The notes under the pieces were generated by a model. It was given only the letters and a program-made list of their open reading frames with translations. It was not told where the DNA came from and did not search any database. A program made the position numbers and the translations under genes. A stretch of 64,000 bases of DNA, taken from assembly GCA_002708765.1 (NCBI GenBank), contig PAPD01000011.1:16858-80857 (forward strand), given 5' to 3'. The stretch is from Gammaproteobacteria bacterium. Its GTDB lineage: Bacteria; Pseudomonadota; Gammaproteobacteria; Pseudomonadales; Azotimanducaceae. Of this stretch, positions 20,927 through 29,194 are shown piece by piece (positions within the stretch are counted from its first letter, which is position 1; every line of letters starts with the position of its first letter).

Positions 20927-22135
20927 ATGACGAATAATCTAGATGTTTTTCGTGAAGAAGTAGAGGTCTGGGTTGCTGAGCAATTCCCGAAGAGTCTCGT
21001 CGGATCGACAATGGGCTTGGAGGGCGAAACGAGTGAGGAAGCGAAAGCTGATTTTGAGTTGTGGCGACAACGGCTAGCTGACAAGGGTTGGGGCGCTCCC
21101 ACTTGGCCCAAGGAATATGGTGGTGCGGAGCTTTCCGATGCCGAGGCCAAAATAATCAGTCAGGAGATGGGTAAGCAGGGCGCTTTTAATCCTATCCCAC
21201 TTATGGCGGGCATGGGTGTTACCATGGTGGGACCGACTGTTCTCGAATATGGAACCGAAGACCAGAAAGCACGACACCTGCCAGGTATTGCTTCGGGAAA
21301 AATCAGGTGGTGCCTTGGCCTTTCCGAGCCAAACGCAGGATCTGACCTGGCTTCTCTTTCGACCAGAGCTGAAGATGATGGTGACACTTATGTGATCAAT
21401 GGTCAGAAGATTTGGACATCAGGAGCAGATATTTCTCAGTGGTGTGGGGCTCTTGTAAGGACCGATTCTTCAGTAGGGAAGCGGGATGGAATAAGTTTTG
21501 TGATGCTTCCTATGGACCAAAAGGGGGTCAGTACTAAGCCAATCCAATTGATATCCGGAATATCTCCGTTCTGCGAGACTTTTTTTGATGATGCCAGAAC
21601 TGACAAGAAAGAGCTACTGGGTCCCCTGAATGAAGGGTGGAGCGTAGTAAAAAGATTGTTGCAGCATGAGCGGCAAAGTCAGACTCAGGCACGAAGCCCT
21701 AGCGCTTCAAGTAACAAGCCTTCATTGCAGGAGCTAGCAAAAACATATGTTGGTGTTGATTCGGCAGGGCGACTAGATGATCCTGATCTGCGAGTTAGAC
21801 TGATAGAGCATCTTATGGATGTTCAGTCTCACTCGTTGACAGTAGGAAGAATTACAGAGGAGGCAAGGGGTAAGGTAGAAGTCAGTGCTGCAGCCTCCAT
21901 CCTGAAGAATTCTGCTACTCGTGTGGCGCAGGGTAATTCCGAGTTAACGTTAGAGCTGATGGGGAATCAGGGAGTTGGCTGGGAAGGAGAAAATTTTAGT
22001 GCCGATGAGCTGAGTAACGTCCGTGATTGGTTGTGGGGTAAAGCTATTTCTATATATGGTGGTTCCTATGAGGTTCAGAACAATATAATTTCAAAGAATA
22101 TTCTCGGGCTTCCCGAGACCACACAGAAAGGATAA
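20927..22135 (+). CDS. acyl-CoA dehydrogenase, probable subunit of a heteromeric enzyme (first)
   Basis: A 402-residue acyl-CoA dehydrogenase. The N-terminal WGAPTWPKEYGGAELSDAEA, the FAD segments GLSEPNAGSDLASL and GQKIWTSGA, and the C-terminal YGGSYEVQNNIISKNILGLP are those of the large FadE group that handles bulky acyl-CoAs such as steroid side chains. The C-terminal loop is GGS rather than YEGT, so the usual catalytic Glu is absent; a Glu in LLQHERQS may substitute. The next acyl-CoA dehydrogenase gene begins three bases after this stop. Adjacent unlike ACAD genes are the hallmark of alpha2beta2 enzymes (ChsE1/ChsE2 type), so a heteromer is likely. Confidence 0.88.
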   Translation: MTNNLDVFREEVEVWVAEQFPKSLVGSTMGLEGETSEEAKADFELWRQRLADKGWGAPTWPKEYGGAELSDAEAKIISQEMGKQGAFNPIPLMAGMGVTMVGPTVLEYGTEDQKARHLPGIASGKIRWCLGLSEPNAGSDLASLSTRAEDDGDTYVINGQKIWTSGADISQWCGALVRTDSSVGKRDGISFVMLPMDQKGVSTKPIQLISGISPFCETFFDDARTDKKELLGPLNEGWSVVKRLLQHERQSQTQARSPSASSNKPSLQELAKTYVGVDSAGRLDDPDLRVRLIEHLMDVQSHSLTVGRITEEARGKVEVSAAASILKNSATRVAQGNSELTLELMGNQGVGWEGENFSADELSNVRDWLWGKAISIYGGSYEVQNNIISKNILGLPETTQKG

Positions 22136-22138
22136 TCC

Positions 22139-23257
22139 ATGGCGGCGTTGACTGAAGTGCAATCTATGATCCGTGACCAGGCAAAGACCTGGATAAGAGA
22201 GGAGTCCCCGGTCGAAAAATTTCGTCAGATGAGGGATTCCGGGAGTGATTTACGTTATGTGCCTGAGACTTGGTCAGGAATGATTGAAATGGGATGGCCA
22301 GGCATTATTATTCCCGAGCAATATGGTGGGTCAGGGCTGGGATATCTGACTTTTGGCCTGGTATTAGAAGAGATTGGCAGACATTTAACAGCGTCACCGC
22401 TTTTTGCGTCGGCATTGGTTGGGGCCTCGGGTATTCTTATTGGGGGTAATGAAGAACAGAAGCAAAATCTGCTGCCCCGGATTGCAGACGGAAGTGCGAT
22501 TATAACGCTAGCGGTTGACGAAGGGCCTCGGCACGATCCATATCGTATGGAGATGGAAGCTAAGAAAAGCGGATCCGGATTTTTACTCGAAGGAACCAAG
22601 ACATTTGTCCAGGAGGGCCTAGCCGCGACAGATTTTATAGTGGCCGCAAAAACCAAAAAAGGAATAACTTTGTTTGTTGTCCCGGGCAATGAGAAGGGGA
22701 TTTCTCGTGAACCTATAAACACGATGGATAGTAGGGGGTATGCGAGCCTGAGCTTTAGCAATGTGCAAATCGAATCCACAAACGTATTAGGTTCTTTGGA
22801 TGAAGGTTCAGATCTGCTCGATAGAATTCTTGACTGCGGACGAGCAGGATTGAGCGCGGAAATGCTTGGAACCGGTGCCCAGGCATTCGATATGACACTT
22901 GATTATCTGAAGACAAGAGAGCAATTTGGCCGCGTAATTGGATCGTTCCAGGCGCTGGGACACAGGGCAGCGGATTTGTTTGGGAAAATGGAACTCAGTC
23001 GATCTTGCATGGAAGCTGCTCTGAGATCTCTAGATGATCAGGCAAGTGATATCCCTGAAAAGGTGTCTCTTTCAAAGGCAAAGGTTGGAGACTTCTTGTA
23101 TGAAATGTCCAATCAACTTATCCAGATTCATGGCGGGATTGGGATGACGGATGAATTCGATGCCGGTTTCTACCTTAAAAGGGCCAGAGTTATAGAAGCT
23201 TGCTTCGGTAACAGAGCTTTTCACAAGGATCGGTACGCTAGGCTGTTTGGTTTTTAA
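22139..23257 (+). CDS. acyl-CoA dehydrogenase, probable partner subunit (second)
   Basis: A 372-residue, more divergent acyl-CoA dehydrogenase. GWPGIIIPEQYGGSGLGYL and the C-terminal QIHGGIGMTDEFDAGFYLKR are family landmarks, but the middle FAD/substrate loop is degenerate (TLAVDEGPRHDPYRME). Neither catalytic-base position is filled: the helix site reads CGRAGL and the C-terminal loop reads EACFGN. This is the expected look of a non-catalytic or half-site subunit in a heteromeric ACAD with the product of 20927-22135, from which it is separated by three bases. It is followed after three bases by a CMD-like gene. Confidence 0.87.
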   Translation: MAALTEVQSMIRDQAKTWIREESPVEKFRQMRDSGSDLRYVPETWSGMIEMGWPGIIIPEQYGGSGLGYLTFGLVLEEIGRHLTASPLFASALVGASGILIGGNEEQKQNLLPRIADGSAIITLAVDEGPRHDPYRMEMEAKKSGSGFLLEGTKTFVQEGLAATDFIVAAKTKKGITLFVVPGNEKGISREPINTMDSRGYASLSFSNVQIESTNVLGSLDEGSDLLDRILDCGRAGLSAEMLGTGAQAFDMTLDYLKTREQFGRVIGSFQALGHRAADLFGKMELSRSCMEAALRSLDDQASDIPEKVSLSKAKVGDFLYEMSNQLIQIHGGIGMTDEFDAGFYLKRARVIEACFGNRAFHKDRYARLFGF

Positions 23258-23260
23258 TAG

Positions 23261-23668
23261 ATGTCTGCGCCTTTGCTAAGTAACCGAATACCTCTAGGTA
23301 AAGTGCAGCTATCTGAGAATCTTCTTGAAAAATATCAGGCGTTTCTTCTATCTACGATCGATTCTAACCACGTGCCTCCCGAAATTCTTCTTAGTTGTAA
23401 AACGAGAATAAGACAAATACACGGTCTGGAAGAAGAAAGTATAGATGGATTAGATGTTCCGGTTATCAGTTCTTCTTTAGATGAGTCTGCCCAGAAAACT
23501 GCTCTTGTTATCGCAGAGAAAATTACTTTTGATGTTCATGGAATAGATGATGGCGAGATGGATGAATTGAAAAGATTTCTTGGTGAACCTGGATGTGTCC
23601 AGTTGATTACAGCGCTGGCTTTTTTTGATGTAGAGAGCCGCCTAGAGCGGGTCTTGGGAGCATTCTGA
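23261..23668 (+). CDS. CMD/AhpD-like protein lacking the redox cysteines
   Basis: A 135-residue protein resembling the carboxymuconolactone decarboxylase/AhpD fold: LPPEILL-type helix (here VPPEILLSCKTRIRQIHG), then DESAQKTALVIAEKITFD and ELKRFLGEPGCVQLITALAF, which match the conserved helices. The CxxC motif expected after the 'R-R-x-x-x-G' helix is missing; the segment reads HGLEEESIDGL. It overlaps the next gene, a second CMD-like protein with a CxxU motif, by one base (TGATG). Pairing of a redox-dead and a redox-active CMD paralogue suggests a heteromeric assembly. The family call is moderately certain; function unknown. Confidence 0.6.
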   Translation: MSAPLLSNRIPLGKVQLSENLLEKYQAFLLSTIDSNHVPPEILLSCKTRIRQIHGLEEESIDGLDVPVISSSLDESAQKTALVIAEKITFDVHGIDDGEMDELKRFLGEPGCVQLITALAFFDVESRLERVLGAF

Positions 23669-24195
23669 TGTCGACTAGACCTAGATTGGAATCAGCTATT
23701 GAGGGTGAGTCGCCGAATTTCTCCAATGTGATGCTACATTCGGAGAAAATATTTCAGAAGTTCACTGACCTCTACGCTGAGTTCTGGAGAAAAAGTTCGG
23801 TTAGTCTTGAAATCAAAGAGATGACCCGGATCAGGAATGCGCGCTTAACCGATTGTGGGTACTGAAAAAACGTAAGGTTTGATTCTGCTCGTGAAGCGGG
23901 ACTAACAGAGGAAAAACTGAACAATGTAAAAGATGGCTATGAGAAAAACCTAGATGAAAAATCTGTTGCTGCTCTGAGGTTGACGGATGAAATTATCGGG
24001 ACCTCGAGCGTTCTGGATAAAGAAAAGGTTATGGATGTAAAAAACAATTTTAGAGAAGAAGAATATGCTGAGATCAGCCTTGGGGTTGGGCTTTTTCTAG
24101 GCATGTCCAAGGTATTGATTGCTTTTGGATTGGAGCCAGAAGACATGCAAACTACCCTGTTACCGACACCGGGGTCCGAGCAAAAGAAAGTCTAG
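23668..24195 (+). CDS. CMD/AhpD-like candidate selenoprotein (CxxU, in-frame UGA at 23863-23865)
   Basis: The frame from the ATG at 23668 runs 65 codons to a TGA (23863-23865), then continues open in the same frame for 109 codons to the TAG at 24193-24195. Before the TGA the protein reads RIRNARLTDCGY and after it KNVRFDSAREAGL, which together match the CMD/AhpD redox helix in which CxxC lies exactly here. The TGA occupies the second Cys, giving Cys63-Gly-Tyr-Sec66. The later part, ALRLTDEIIGTSSVLD, fits the second conserved helix. A SECIS-like hairpin lies 24 bases downstream. Sec-containing AhpD-like proteins are known from metagenomic surveys, as far as I recall. Alternatives are a TGC/TGT-to-TGA nonsense mutation or base-call error. 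Flanking genes are one base (overlap) and three bases away, so the whole span is one cistron of the operon. Confidence 0.75.
23863..23905 (+). promoter_or_regulatory. candidate bacterial SECIS element (UGA plus downstream hairpin)
   Basis: After the UGA, TTCTGCT (23883-23889) pairs with AGCGGGA (23895-23901) over seven base pairs, two of them G-U, around the loop CGTGA (23890-23894). Below an A/C mismatch three more pairs extend the stem to 23879-23905. The loop begins 24 bases after the UGA and has G in its second position. Known bacterial SECIS elements place the loop roughly 16-37 bases after the UGA and carry a G in the first two loop positions. Activity needs SelB, not visible here. Confidence 0.6.
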
Positions 24196-24198
24196 AAC

Positions 24199-25803
24199 AT
24201 GACTGATAAAAAAATTGAAGAAATGTTAATCGGCAAGGTAAGGCATAATCTGAAAACTCACCTAAATATTATCTGCGGATTTTCTGAGTTGATCCTTGAG
24301 GACCTTGAAGACAATAAAAAAGAAGCCGTCGAATTAGTGGGCTTCGAAGCTAATCTTTCGGAGATTAATTCCTTCGGCGGTTCCATTACCGCATCTATAG
24401 AAAGGTTTCTTGATAAAGAATTTTTTTTGGCAGGTTCGTTAAGAGATCTTCTGAAAAAACAGTCCTTGCATCTTTCAGAAGATATATCTGCCAGTATAGA
24501 AGGAATTGAGAGTCGTATTAAGAAAATCCGTAATGAAGAAAAAGAACAAATCACAGATGAAATTGCCGTTGATCTAGCTCGTATTGAGAATGCTAGTGAA
24601 TTGTTAAAAAAAAATATATCCAGTTTGGTTAAAGAAGACATTGGTTCTCCGGATGATTTGTTAAATGCGGGGTTGGTCTCTGAAGCTGATATAGAAGGGC
24701 TTCAAAATTATAATCTTTTCCTACAAGATGATCTTGAACCTGCGCCTACGAAATATCCGAGCAGAATTCTTGTTGTCGATGATAACCCTGCGAATCTTGA
24801 GTTTCTGAAAAGAAAATTAGCGGCCGTTGGGCATGTGACATTGTTGGCTAGCTCTGGCGAAGAAGCAGAAAAAATGCTGGAGGGTTCGGAGCAGATAGAT
24901 TTGATCTTGCTGGATATTTTGATGCCAGGGGTTTCAGGTTACGAGATTCTTGCTAGGAATATAAAAAGCCTCAAAAAGAGAAATATTCCGGTTCTAATGG
25001 TTTCTTCCCTTGGCGAGCAAGAAACTGTTTATAGGTGCTTGGAGAAAGGTGCCGAGGATTATGTGACAAAGCCAATCAATTTCGTCATTTTGTCCTCCAG
25101 GATAAATTCAGCGTTAGAACGAAAGCATTTGCTTGATAGAGAAGAAGAACATCTGAGAGAAATACAAGAAGAAAAAGAACGATACGAGAATCTGTTGCTG
25201 AATATCCTTCCTCAGCCGATAGCGATGAGAATGAAAGCGGAGGAATACCTAATAGCAGACTATGTCGATGGTTGTTCTATTCTTTTTGCAGATATAGTTG
25301 GGTTTACTAGTCTTGCGGAAAAAATGGGTGCCTCGGAGATAGTAGCTTTATTGAACAAGTTGTTTTCGCACTTTGATGAAGAATGTGAAGTCCTGGGTCT
25401 AGAAAAGATAAAAACAATCGGTGACAACTATATGGCAGCGTCGGGAGTGCCTAACGCAAATCCAGGTCATCCTGCTCTAGCGATTGAAATGGGACTTAGA
25501 ATGCTCGAGTATGTTAAATCTATGGATCCTGTTATGGGTTCTGATCTGGAACTTAGAATAGGAGTGCATTCTGGTTCGGCCGTAGCAGGTGTGATAGGGA
25601 AAAAGAAATTTGTATATGATCTTTGGGGAGATGCAGTAAATACAGCTCAGAGAATGGAAAGCCATGGTATTCCGAATCAGGTTCATGTTTCTGATGCGAC
25701 TGCCAAGCTGGTTGCAGGCAAGTATGAAGTTCGTAGCCTTGGATTAAGAGAAATTAAGGGAAAGGGACTTATGGAAACGTTTATCGCTGATAGACTCGAA
25801 TAG
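24199..25803 (+). CDS. class III adenylate cyclase with receiver domain and degenerate DHp-like N-terminus
   Basis: A 534-residue cytoplasmic signalling protein. Residues about 10-35 (VRHNLKTHLNIICGFSELI) mimic a histidine-kinase H-box with His16, but no ATPase domain follows. A receiver domain spans about 188-305 with phospho-acceptor Asp239 in LLDILMPG and KP at 291-292. A coiled-coil linker (310-335) leads to a class III cyclase domain: metal Asp365 and Asp409, and Lys405 plus Asp474 at the purine-selecting positions, which indicates ATP rather than GTP. Cyclic AMP output controlled by phosphorylation of the receiver is expected. It begins three bases after the CMD selenoprotein candidate and precedes the hybrid kinase by 19 bases, so both are in the same operon. 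Confidence 0.88.
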   Translation: MTDKKIEEMLIGKVRHNLKTHLNIICGFSELILEDLEDNKKEAVELVGFEANLSEINSFGGSITASIERFLDKEFFLAGSLRDLLKKQSLHLSEDISASIEGIESRIKKIRNEEKEQITDEIAVDLARIENASELLKKNISSLVKEDIGSPDDLLNAGLVSEADIEGLQNYNLFLQDDLEPAPTKYPSRILVVDDNPANLEFLKRKLAAVGHVTLLASSGEEAEKMLEGSEQIDLILLDILMPGVSGYEILARNIKSLKKRNIPVLMVSSLGEQETVYRCLEKGAEDYVTKPINFVILSSRINSALERKHLLDREEEHLREIQEEKERYENLLLNILPQPIAMRMKAEEYLIADYVDGCSILFADIVGFTSLAEKMGASEIVALLNKLFSHFDEECEVLGLEKIKTIGDNYMAASGVPNANPGHPALAIEMGLRMLEYVKSMDPVMGSDLELRIGVHSGSAVAGVIGKKKFVYDLWGDAVNTAQRMESHGIPNQVHVSDATAKLVAGKYEVRSLGLREIKGKGLMETFIADRLE

Positions 25804-25822
25804 AAAACTGGGTTATTTTCTT

Positions 25823-28822
25823 ATGCAGATCAGAACTCTTGTATTAATTCTCTCGGCGCTAGGTACTATTCTTGTAGCAGTGGTCGTCGGTTATTTTTCT
25901 TTCAAAAGAGAGCAAGCACAAAGTGACGCAGATATTAGTATGCGTTGGGCGGTTTATTCCAAATCCATCGATCGCGTGGTGGAAGATGCATTCGATCAGA
26001 TGCGGAGACTTGGACCCGAAGGAGAAAGACCTTCTTTCTGGACCTCAGAAAATCTTAGACGCATCGATTTTTCTGGGGAGAGATCTTTCACTCCTGAGCT
26101 CGATAGAAAATTAGAGAATTTTTTTGCCTCCTCCTTAAAGAAAAGCGACATACTTTTTTTTACTGTTATCGATGCTGGAACACTAGATCAGGTAGTGTGC
26201 AAAAAAACACCTTTCGTTCCGGAGTACGATCCTTGCAATGAAGGTTACGATACCCTTTACATTGATGTTGGTTTACCTCTCGATTTTTACAAAATGATTC
26301 TCCATTCCAAAACGTCATGGTCTGGTTACATGCTTCAAACTACTGAGACCGAAGACAGAAACAACTTGGTCTATGCATTCCCGGTCACAGTAGATGGTGG
26401 AATTAAGTTCATTGTTCAAGTGGTTAAAGCGCTTGATCCAGCTATTACGAAATTTTCGGGGGAGATGCGTATTAATGCTGCGATGATTAACATGAAGAGG
26501 GATCCGGAGTTCTACCTAGAATCGCAACCTATGACCTCACAACTTCTAGGTTATGCCTATGATTACGATGCTCTTGGTGTCGAAAATTTAGGGAGGTTGG
26601 CGGAGTCGTATGGGCTTATAAAGTCAGAGGAAAGATCATCTCGTGGCCTTGCGGATCTCGAAATGTTTAGAAACAGTTATATGCTTTTTAATTCTTTGGG
26701 TGTAGAAGCAATGTTTTTCCCCCTATCCCGAGATATTACTTCCCCACTTCAAGGGACCGTAATAGCTTTATACCGCAATGTCGAAGAACTTATTGCAAAA
26801 AAGGAAAGGTACACGGGAAATATGATCGCTGTATCTGTTGCTTCGGTGTTATTCGTTCTTGCTCTTATGTTTTTGATACAGCGTTCGCTTCTGTCTGGTC
26901 TAAGTAGCGCAATTTTTGTACTGAAAGAACTCACCGATGGGAACACGGATGTCGAAATTCGTAGAAAAAACTCTTTTTTTCAAAGTGAAAATGATGAAGT
27001 GGGGAGGCTTGTTTCTGCTCTGTCCGATTATAAGGATAGGCTCCTGGAGCTCGATCTGGTTCGAAAGAGGCAGAGAGAGGAAAAAAAGAAAAGAGATCAC
27101 ACTATTATTCAAAAAATGGGCGTTCTGGCTAACCAGCTGGAAGGAGAAGCACAGATTTTGTTGAGGGACGATATTAACAGAATTGATGAAATGTCTAGAG
27201 ATTCGGCTGTAGAAGAAGGCGATGAATTGATGACAGTTGCCTTTGACAGAATGTCAGACCAGGTTGCTGAGTTGATTCAGGCGAGGACTAAAGAACTGGA
27301 ATCGGCGGTTGCCGAAACGGAGGAAGCAAATCTTGCTAAGAGCAAGTTTTTGGCAAATATGAGCCATGAACTTAGGACTCCTCTAAATGCGATCATAGGT
27401 TACAGTGAATTGTTAGCTGAAGATGCTGAAGATGAAGGCCTGGATTCGATGTTGGAGGACTTGAAAAAGATAAATGATTCCGGCAAACATTTGCTTAGCC
27501 TTATTAACGATATATTAGATATCTCTAAAATAGAAGCAGGCAAGTTGGAGATGTTTGTTTCGGAGTTTGAAGTTAACTCTGTTATCAATATCCTTCGAAG
27601 TGTGGCGGTTCCATTGGCTGAGAAGCAGAGCAATCAGCTTAACTTCGAGATTGCCAGCGACCTTGGCGTGATGAAAAGCGATGAGACAAGGCTGCGACAA
27701 TGTCTATTGAATCTTTTGAGTAATGCGTGCAAGTTTACAGAATCTGGCGAGGTGAAATTAACGGCCGAGGTAGACAATATAAACGGTGATGAGTTTATTG
27801 TTTTTTCCATATCGGATACCGGAATCGGGATGAATCAGGTCCAGCTTGAGAAAGTCTTTAACGAATTCACCCAGGCTGAGGATGATACTACTACTAAGTT
27901 TGGTGGAACAGGTTTAGGCCTGAGCATAACAAAGCAGCTAGTCGAAATGATGAGCGGTTCCATTTCCGCAAGCAGTTCTCCTGGTGAAGGTTCTACCTTC
28001 CGTATAGAAGTCCCCAGGATTGCAGCTAGCAGAGACCATGTGTCTTCCGAAATGAAGACATCGGAATCTATTAATAACGAACGTAATCCGCCATCAAATG
28101 GAAAGAAAAGAGTGTTAGTTATTGATGATGATGAAAAAGTCCATGAGTTGCTTGAAAGAAATCTAGGGAAAGATTATTCACTTTCCTTTGCGAAGGATGG
28201 AGTTCAGGGAATGGAAAAAGTGCGTGCTGATCGGCCAGACCTGATTATTCTCGATGTCTTGATGCCCAGAAAAGATGGTTGGACTGTCCTGGATGAAATG
28301 CAGTCTGACCCTGATTTAAAATCAATTCCCGTAATTATGCTTAGTATGATGGATGATGATGGAAAAGCTTTGCCGCTTGGAGCATCTGCGCATTTTACGA
28401 AACCGGTCGACAAGAAGATTCTAGCTGCCGAAATAACAAAATTATTTGAAGAAGGCACAAAAGGAAGAAAGGTTTTAGTCATCGACGATGATCCCGATGC
28501 GAGAGATCTGATTTCCAGAGCTTTGATCACGGAAGGGTTTAGCGTGTCTCATGCAGCTAATGGGAAAGAAGGGCTTTCTATGCTTTCCGGAGATCTGGAT
28601 CTGATAGTTCTAGATCTTTCCATGCCAGTCATGGATGGCTTCGAGTTTTTGACCCGTTACAACGCCTTAGATGGCAACAAAGATTGTAAAGTCGTCATAT
28701 ATAGTGGGATGGACTTGGATGAAACTTTAAGGTCGACTCTCTCATCGCTTTACGCTGGGTTCGTCGACAAAAAATCCTCAGATATTTCACAGGAGTTGAG
28801 AAAGCTGCTTTCCGAAACATGA
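25823..28822 (+). CDS. hybrid sensor histidine kinase with two receiver domains
   Basis: A 999-residue membrane kinase: one helix at about 5-25, a periplasmic domain of roughly 300 residues with two cysteines near QVVCKKTPFVPEYDPC that could be redox-active, a second helix at about 333-355, then a HAMP-like linker, a HisKA domain with His515 in MSHELRTPLNAI, an ATPase domain (NLLSNACKF, DTGIGM, GTGLGLSI), and two receivers with Asp811 and Asp931. The natural partners are the receiver-cyclase encoded 19 bases upstream and the single-domain regulator encoded convergently right after it. The periplasmic sensor has no family I recognise. Confidence 0.92.
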   Translation: MQIRTLVLILSALGTILVAVVVGYFSFKREQAQSDADISMRWAVYSKSIDRVVEDAFDQMRRLGPEGERPSFWTSENLRRIDFSGERSFTPELDRKLENFFASSLKKSDILFFTVIDAGTLDQVVCKKTPFVPEYDPCNEGYDTLYIDVGLPLDFYKMILHSKTSWSGYMLQTTETEDRNNLVYAFPVTVDGGIKFIVQVVKALDPAITKFSGEMRINAAMINMKRDPEFYLESQPMTSQLLGYAYDYDALGVENLGRLAESYGLIKSEERSSRGLADLEMFRNSYMLFNSLGVEAMFFPLSRDITSPLQGTVIALYRNVEELIAKKERYTGNMIAVSVASVLFVLALMFLIQRSLLSGLSSAIFVLKELTDGNTDVEIRRKNSFFQSENDEVGRLVSALSDYKDRLLELDLVRKRQREEKKKRDHTIIQKMGVLANQLEGEAQILLRDDINRIDEMSRDSAVEEGDELMTVAFDRMSDQVAELIQARTKELESAVAETEEANLAKSKFLANMSHELRTPLNAIIGYSELLAEDAEDEGLDSMLEDLKKINDSGKHLLSLINDILDISKIEAGKLEMFVSEFEVNSVINILRSVAVPLAEKQSNQLNFEIASDLGVMKSDETRLRQCLLNLLSNACKFTESGEVKLTAEVDNINGDEFIVFSISDTGIGMNQVQLEKVFNEFTQAEDDTTTKFGGTGLGLSITKQLVEMMSGSISASSSPGEGSTFRIEVPRIAASRDHVSSEMKTSESINNERNPPSNGKKRVLVIDDDEKVHELLERNLGKDYSLSFAKDGVQGMEKVRADRPDLIILDVLMPRKDGWTVLDEMQSDPDLKSIPVIMLSMMDDDGKALPLGASAHFTKPVDKKILAAEITKLFEEGTKGRKVLVIDDDPDARDLISRALITEGFSVSHAANGKEGLSMLSGDLDLIVLDLSMPVMDGFEFLTRYNALDGNKDCKVVIYSGMDLDETLRSTLSSLYAGFVDKKSSDISQELRKLLSET

Positions 28823-29194
28823 TCAGTTATTTTTTTTGACCAGATTCTCTATTTTTTCTAGCAGTCGTTTGAAATCGACAGGTTTGGTATCGAAATCGTC
28901 CGCTCCTACATCGAATGCTTTTTGTCTGTCTTGCTCAAGGGCGTGCGCTGTTAAGGCGATTATGGGGATATGTTCTGTATCTGGGTTCTCTTTTGCTTTT
29001 TTTGTTGCTTCCCAACCATCCATTATTGGTAGACCTATGTCCATGAGCACAAGATCAGGTTTTACGGAGGCGAGCTTTTCCAGGCCCTCGACGCCGTCTT
29101 CTGCGAACTCTATCGAATAGCCTTTTTTTATAAGACGCCTGGATAGCATATCTCTGTTAAGTTCGTTGTCTTCTACTATAAGTATCGTTGTCAT
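28823..29194 (-). CDS. single-domain response regulator (DivK/CheY-like)
   Basis: A 123-residue stand-alone receiver domain: acidic pocket VEDN at the N-terminus, Asp52 in LVLMDIGLPIMDGW as phospho-acceptor, Thr in ALTAHAL and Lys in DTKPVD. There is no output domain, so it works as a phosphate shuttle or sink or by protein contact. Its stop codon directly abuts the stop of the hybrid kinase on the other strand, and that kinase is the most likely donor. A strong inverted repeat lies 13 bases before its start codon. Confidence 0.92.
   Translation of the reverse strand: MTTILIVEDNELNRDMLSRRLIKKGYSIEFAEDGVEGLEKLASVKPDLVLMDIGLPIMDGWEATKKAKENPDTEHIPIIALTAHALEQDRQKAFDVGADDFDTKPVDFKRLLEKIENLVKKNN

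Follow-up and report, generated by a model that had tools for sequence, protein, structure and literature searches.

Does the TGA that interrupts a gene of the CMD/AhpD superfamily at this locus end translation or encode selenocysteine (Sec), and if the latter, with which partner does the selenoprotein act? The window, i.e. the whole stretch of 64,000 nucleotides that was analysed, contains on its forward strand a frame of 175 codons (23668..24195) that begins with ATG, ends with the stop codon TAG (24193-24195) and is continuous apart from a single TGA at codon 66 (23863-23865), exactly where the initial annotation had placed it. Read with table 11 the same stretch yields two ORFs of 65 aa and 71 aa, which are the two false short genes expected of automated annotation. 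The TGA occupies the second position of the redox pair in the CxxC motif (T-D-C63-G-Y-U66; surrounding residues RNARLTDCGYUKNVRFDSAREAG), and, as had also been claimed, family sequence continues on both sides of it without a shift of frame: the Pfam CMD profile (PF02627) spans the TGA from residue 30 to residue 86 with 25.5 bits (gathering score 23), and PA0269 from P. aeruginosa (2ijc/2o4d) can be aligned on either side, with a Cys opposite U66. Elsewhere in the window TGA is a normal stop codon that ends 14 of the 46 ORFs of at least 200 aa. In NCBIfam the window protein stays under every cut-off, scoring 20.2 bits vs. 310 for GroundWater_YciW (NF053654), 19.6 bits vs. 110 for GSU3128_fam (NF041047), and 17 vs. 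81.8 for peroxid_rel (TIGR01926); the best E-value among 36 family members is 1.8e-13 (NF053654) and, judged from these E-values, probably none of the members reaches a cut-off. These three families and AhpD_rel_CFYUT (NF041238) have the superfamily in common with the window protein, and all but one of the four carry the label (seleno)protein.

The initial annotation had proposed to look for conservation of the TGA in relatives, and this conservation is pronounced. We searched 58 genomes, i.e. the window's own and those of 57 relatives, and found an orthologue with 53-63% identity in 15 relatives (11 of 16 genus-mates, 4 of 20 family-mates and 0 of 21 order-mates). All 16 genes, including that of the window, have TGA at codon 66, with the frame and the invariant residues kept on both sides of it. 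In a scan of genome contigs, whose patterns left out the Sec codon, 94 loci were obtained, and codon 66 is TGA in 76 and TGC in four (L144, L152, L169 and L171) of the best 80; this set shares some genomes with the 15 relatives, and the counts are not additive. Nearly all of the 80 loci are metagenome-assembled, and their record titles name Gammaproteobacteria/Pseudomonadales, Dehalococcoidia or Chloroflexi, Actinomycetota (mostly Acidimicrobiia), one Myxococcales and one Acidobacteria. Two MAG titles, 'Klebsiella pneumoniae' (L153) and 'Bifidobacterium breve' (L183), look like mislabels; the family members there group by eye with gammaproteobacterial or actinobacterial-type sequences.

A Cys at this site in homologues, the other expectation voiced at the outset, is found in PA0269, in the four TGC homologues and in 6 of 15 more distant matches (20-33% identity), the remainder of which have TGA (7) or neither (2; L044, L045). 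Two of the TGC homologues sit in genomes with SelB, and Sec is therefore not indispensable. One of the six Cys matches is a second CMD-like gene of the window's genome (G000:C19:63395-63712; L002, L052), which has 29% identity, no in-frame stop and a CxxC motif (QCRSC), its best NCBIfam match being GroundWater_YciW, under the cut-off. Relatives moreover encode CMD/AhpD-like families of 22-29% identity with the motifs GC[RL]YU (L036, L037) and DCFTU (L038, L040-L043), and in all seven copies retrieved one TGA interrupts the frame, again at this CxxU site; no match of either kind is among the matches listed for the window's own genome.

Downstream of the TGA we found a hairpin (23883..23901, forward strand) that had been absent from the initial annotation. 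It consists of a 7-bp stem (23883-23889 with 23895-23901) and the loop CGUGA (23890-23894), with 24 nt from UGA to loop, and fits the printed limits for bacterial SECIS elements (5-nt loop, G at its second position, 7-bp stem, 24 nt spacing; PMC13188914). The hairpin folds as described in the window's own sequence, but is inconspicuous there: it contains two G-U wobbles, has a folding energy of -5.8 kcal/mol alone and -7.7 kcal/mol with its flank, and a z of -0.04 for a 49-nt stretch, and longer stretches prefer a rival fold. Rfam gives nothing at gathering score in the window, and a permissive search of 23600-24300 gave no match at the SECIS and one weak match elsewhere (24087-24142, E 0.094).

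The comparative evidence comes from 42 of 76 distinct TGA sequences, an essentially gammaproteobacterial set composed of the window, the TGA loci up to L148, and L150, L151, L153-L156, L159, L172 and L193. The loop begins with CGUG in all 42 (form CGUGN). Paired cells amount to 93.5% vs. 85.8% in shuffles and 37-60% if the partners are slid by 1-3 columns, double-changed cells to 34 vs. 11.3 in shuffles, and the covariation score to 0.320 vs. 0.164; none of 500 shuffles reached any one of these three values. Two of five covariation measures are not above the shuffles, namely pairs with any double change (3; reached by 282 of 500) and further pair types (6; 498 of 500). RNAalifold recovers the inner 5 bp unaided. 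The closing pair, at a synonymous third position, is C-G in 25 sequences and U-A in 17, the next-but-two pair, likewise at a synonymous third position, is C-G in 28, U-A in 12 and other in 2, and these two pairs together with the outermost one occupy ranks 1-3 of 34 third-position pairs, by a Fisher P that ignores relatedness. At the loop codon, Arg75, CGT accounts for 63 of the 68 Arg codons, its share being 8% at R54, 21% at R56, 5% at R59 and 23% at R70, i.e. at the other invariant Arg codons, and 12% among the Arg codons of the window's long ORFs. In 77 TGA sequences residue 75 is not Arg in nine and has another Arg codon in five, so that other lineages must use other hairpins. Computation thus supports the assignment of the element after UGA as a putative bacterial SECIS with compensatory synonymous changes.

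The search for the Sec machinery suggested by the initial annotation succeeded in part. The window's genome contains selA (571.6 bits; cut-off 267.9) and selB (427.2 bits; cut-off 242.25), adjacent with a 4-nt overlap on contig C15; the assembly, which has 61 contigs and is 93.6% complete, yielded neither selD nor tRNA-Sec. The sole SelD profile match, on contig C37, has 55.7 bits vs. a cut-off of 125 and was rejected, as it has nusB-, ribH- and pgpA-like neighbours and is probably ThiL (neighbours and identity named by reading of translations). For tRNA-Sec there are 13 sub-threshold Rfam matches (150 of 214 first-look candidates scored), eight of which are ordinary tRNAs according to ARAGORN, and ARAGORN found no tRNA-Sec on C15. 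A DNA search of the assembly with the tRNA-Sec of a relative gave no more than matches of some 14-29 bases (E of 0.75 or worse), while the tRNA-Sec genes compared from eight genomes of the genus and family are 82-97% identical over 67-93 bases; a search for the gene next to tRNA-Sec in two genus-mates, run without positive control, was likewise negative. In the genus-mates G007 and G013 tRNA-Sec is located about 10 and 21 kb from selB, and C15 stays colinear with G013 over some 14 kb before the two diverge. A segment missing from the assembly would account for the failure to find selD and tRNA-Sec, although this is no proof of such a gap.

Among the 58 genomes selB is over its cut-off in 35, tRNA-Sec in 33 and selD in 42. 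The selD genes of four relatives (G035, G028, G018 and G008; L093-L096) have one in-frame TGA each; Sec-containing SelD, likewise with an in-frame TGA, is known. The search covered 50 genomes with loci of the scan (50 of 80), and SelB is over the cut-off in 45 of these, i.e. in 43 of 46 of TGA type (the exceptions being those of L139, L145 and L155) and in 2 of 4 of TGC type, where the genome of L169 is without SelB and the one with L171 (Desertimonas flava) reaches 229, narrowly short of the cut-off.

Several independent lines thus converge, and UGA 66 in 23668-24195 is almost certainly read as selenocysteine, as the initial annotation had proposed and as TGA conservation, SECIS-like hairpin and the presence of selA and selB support. 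It is well supported by computation that SelB and tRNA-Sec decode this UGA, presumably directed by the hairpin 24 nt downstream. Readthrough by other means, i.e. insertion of Trp or Cys or a reassigned code, would agree with an assembly in which selD and tRNA-Sec were not found, but is very improbable in view of the long ORFs of the window that end with TGA, the placement of the TGA at a redox Cys, the hairpin, and selA and selB. A true stop or a fresh mutation, giving a pseudogene or two short genes, has still less to recommend it: standard ORF calling and the failure to find selD and tRNA-Sec speak for it, but TGA conservation (16/16 and 76/80), an intact frame with invariant residues before and after the TGA, and covariation in the hairpin speak against it. 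On the TGA counts together with the TGA stops elsewhere in the window we reject a pseudogene, a sequencing error and code reassignment.

The gene directly upstream (23261..23668, forward strand), whose nature the initial annotation had not noted, encodes a protein of 135 aa without a Cys pair, and the last base of its TGA stop is at the same time the first base of the selenoprotein's ATG. The window's protein has no Pfam match, being too diverged, but four of ten members of its family that were scanned pass the CMD gathering score (L150, L157, L160 and L164), and a profile-profile comparison aligns the family with the selenoprotein family (98.7%, E 1.8e-16, 145 columns). In line with this, the first 15 rows of a structure search with the model of this protein (pLDDT 82.5) are all AhpD/CMD structures, with Z from 11.9 to 7.5, and the next row has 3.9. 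A tree separates 34 of these proteins plus seven C-terminal domains of fusion proteins from 36 selenoproteins plus the seven N-terminal domains of the fusions with a support of 0.996. The upstream gene thus encodes a CMD-fold protein, in which the active site is degenerate: CxxC occurs in 0 of 71 proteins (the window's and those of 70 loci), of which 35 retain the first Cys and 41 have Glu at the second position; the window's protein lacks both Cys (IHGLEEE). Five residues, R49, H93, D97, L115 and R127, are invariant in the 34 aligned partners. One His is kept in 70 of the 71 and is Arg in the seven fusions, and is therefore unlikely to be catalytic, which weakens the idea that the partner donates a catalytic His.

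The partner lies directly upstream of the selenoprotein gene in 71 of the 79 testable loci, i.e. those with enough upstream sequence, and it does so in several phyla, always on the same strand, at -11 to +93 nt from the selenoprotein start and with a 1-nt overlap in 28 of the 71 (BLAST clustering detects it in 38 of the 80 loci, profiles in more). In seven of the remaining eight (L176, L179, L180, L182, L185, L187 and L188) it is fused to the C-terminus of the selenoprotein, the C-terminal half matching the partner profile with best E-values of 3.9e-11 to 6.4e-6 and the selenoprotein profile with best E-values of 2.2e-4 to 0.19; at the eighth, L148, the 19 kb that were read contain none. The four TGC-type loci likewise have the partner, and pairing therefore does not depend on Sec. 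The mirror-tree correlation of the two families is r = 0.755 (33 pairs, 0 of 2000 permutations), a value that we do not count as evidence of contact, since common descent gives the same.

Based on these findings we consider it probable that the locus encodes a Sec-containing CMD enzyme that acts as a hetero-oligomer with the upstream pseudoenzyme. Pairing, fusion and common fold suggest that selenoprotein and partner associate, in which case the partner, possibly made by coupled translation, would replace the second catalytic protomer of AhpD. It is rather unlikely that the selenoprotein alone forms a homo-oligomeric AhpD-like enzyme, with the upstream gene inherited alongside it as a relic or as a regulator without physical role. 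AhpD-like proteins are indeed reported to form homo-oligomers (PMC3141380), and both the divergence of the window's partner beyond a Pfam match and the solitary gene of L148 would be compatible with this, but pairing or fusion at nearly every locus across several phyla, the 1-nt overlap in 28 of 71 pairs and the five residues invariant in the partners speak against it.

As to the chemistry, the model of the selenoprotein (pLDDT 89.9, pTM 0.86) matches AhpD-like structures with Z 17.4-16.2 (Foldseek E 1.6e-5) and has a helix at 64-67 followed by a short strand at 69-71; another short strand (163-165) lies beside the conserved PTPGS tail. PA0269, an AhpD-like protein with CxxC and weak peroxidase activity (also 7xw1), shares this fold (2ijc_F, Z 16.8, rmsd 2.4, 141 aligned). 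Its relay has been described as Glu36, Cys48, Tyr50, Cys51 and His55 and the protein as a homo-hexamer (PMC3141380). Residues E36, C48, Y50 and C51 align with E51, C63, Y65 and U66 of the selenoprotein, but where PA0269 has Cys51 and the relay His55, the selenoprotein has Sec66 and Arg70. Membership in the CMD/AhpD superfamily (PF02627) is borne out by both profile score and Z 17.4, whereas the five-residue relay of AhpD (Glu, Cys, Tyr/His, Cys, His) is incomplete, its His being Arg70 in 16 of 16 orthologues and in 36 of 36 aligned members, and we therefore do not file the selenoprotein as AhpD proper. Invariant in these 36 members are E51, C63, U66 (Cys in two rows) and R70. We suggest that the selenolate of U66 would attack the substrate, that C63 would resolve the intermediate to a selenenyl-sulfide, and that a cellular thiol system would re-reduce the latter, the product most likely being a selenol-based enzyme that reduces hydroperoxides or disulfides.

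The genomic neighbourhood allows another view of the substrate. Upstream of the pair, on the same strand, are the genes of two acyl-CoA dehydrogenases assigned by Pfam, a larger one (20927..22135) and a smaller one (22139..23257), and in this genus an aldehyde dehydrogenase and a CocE-type hydrolase also lie beside the unit. The two proteins could thus constitute a CMD-type enzyme for a CoA-linked or halogenated substrate, similar to the debrominase Bmp8, rather than a peroxidase; the structure search listed Bmp8 with Z 15.7, and the replacement of the relay His by Arg70 points the same way. We regard this as improbable, since a Sec at the CxxC site speaks for redox chemistry and the neighbours vary by lineage: the dehydrogenase pair is present upstream on the same strand in only 11 of 80 loci and is therefore a lineage-level context, and besides the partner the genes most often found nearby encode short-chain dehydrogenases (in 15 loci), acyl-CoA dehydrogenases (in 14) and luciferase-like oxidoreductases (in 12), in a clustering that set aside a larger cluster of opposite-strand ORFs overlying the selenoprotein gene. 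As neighbours change between lineages, we propose no pathway for the redox enzyme favoured here, although in this genus the pair may serve an acyl-CoA dehydrogenase catabolic cluster. On its other side the selenoprotein gene is followed by genes for a response-regulator/nucleotide-cyclase protein, which starts 3 nt past the selenoprotein stop, a large hybrid histidine kinase and a response regulator (24199-29194), and these signalling genes recur behind the orthologue in the genus-mate G015 (L078).

In the literature searched, which does not include the account of selenoprotein neighbourhoods by Haft and Tolstoy (2025), we found no description of a selenoprotein paired with a degenerate CMD protein from a gene of its own. 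As standard gene calling splits the gene, mis-annotation is probable for this family, in which Sec dominates (76 TGA among the best 80 loci). Its natural Sec/Cys pairs could serve to test why selenium is retained, and it provides, moreover, an example from bacteria of a CMD protomer that has turned into a pseudoenzyme, both as two genes and as a fusion; this conversion is a step proposed in the evolution of sestrins (PMC11429811).

The components of this arrangement are known individually. CxxU selenoproteins of the AhpD/CMD superfamily have been reported since 2005, in line with the suspicion of the initial annotation that the family is probably not new: marine metagenomes from the Sargasso Sea (2005) and the GOS expedition (2008) contain the families 'AhpD-like 1', 'AhpD-like 2' and 'CMD domain-containing protein' (PMC1088965, PMC2398784), which belong to the same superfamily and have Sec at the second position of CxxC. 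By name, domain and motif, the features on which the comparison is based, the window gene may belong to 'AhpD-like 2' or 'CMD-like', both PF02627; the accessible portions of these accounts do not mention a paired CMD protein (PMC1088965, PMC2398784). Two-domain AhpD-like proteins with a degenerate half are likewise known, both from bacteria and as sestrins, in which one CMD-type half is catalytic and the other degenerate (PMC4674687, PMC11429811), an electronegative DDYDY-type hinge in the degenerate half being defining for Sestrin (PMC11429811). Searched against PDB sequences with E up to 1, a profile of the fused form gave AhpD/CMD proteins and apparent chance matches, and no sestrin; in structure, residues 77-218 of Sestrin2, which hold Cys125, match the selenoprotein model with Z 13.2 (rmsd 2.4, 137 aligned). 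It appears an even question whether the family represents obligate heteromeric selenoenzymes across phyla, composed of a CxxU CMD subunit and a CMD pseudoenzyme, and thus a split counterpart of the sestrin plan with Sec as catalytic residue. In contrast to sestrins, which carry two AhpD-like domains in one chain, the halves are encoded by two genes in the window and at most loci, with the degenerate one upstream, and the catalytic residue is Sec; in the fusions found in 7 of the 80 other loci the catalytic half comes first, as in Sestrin.
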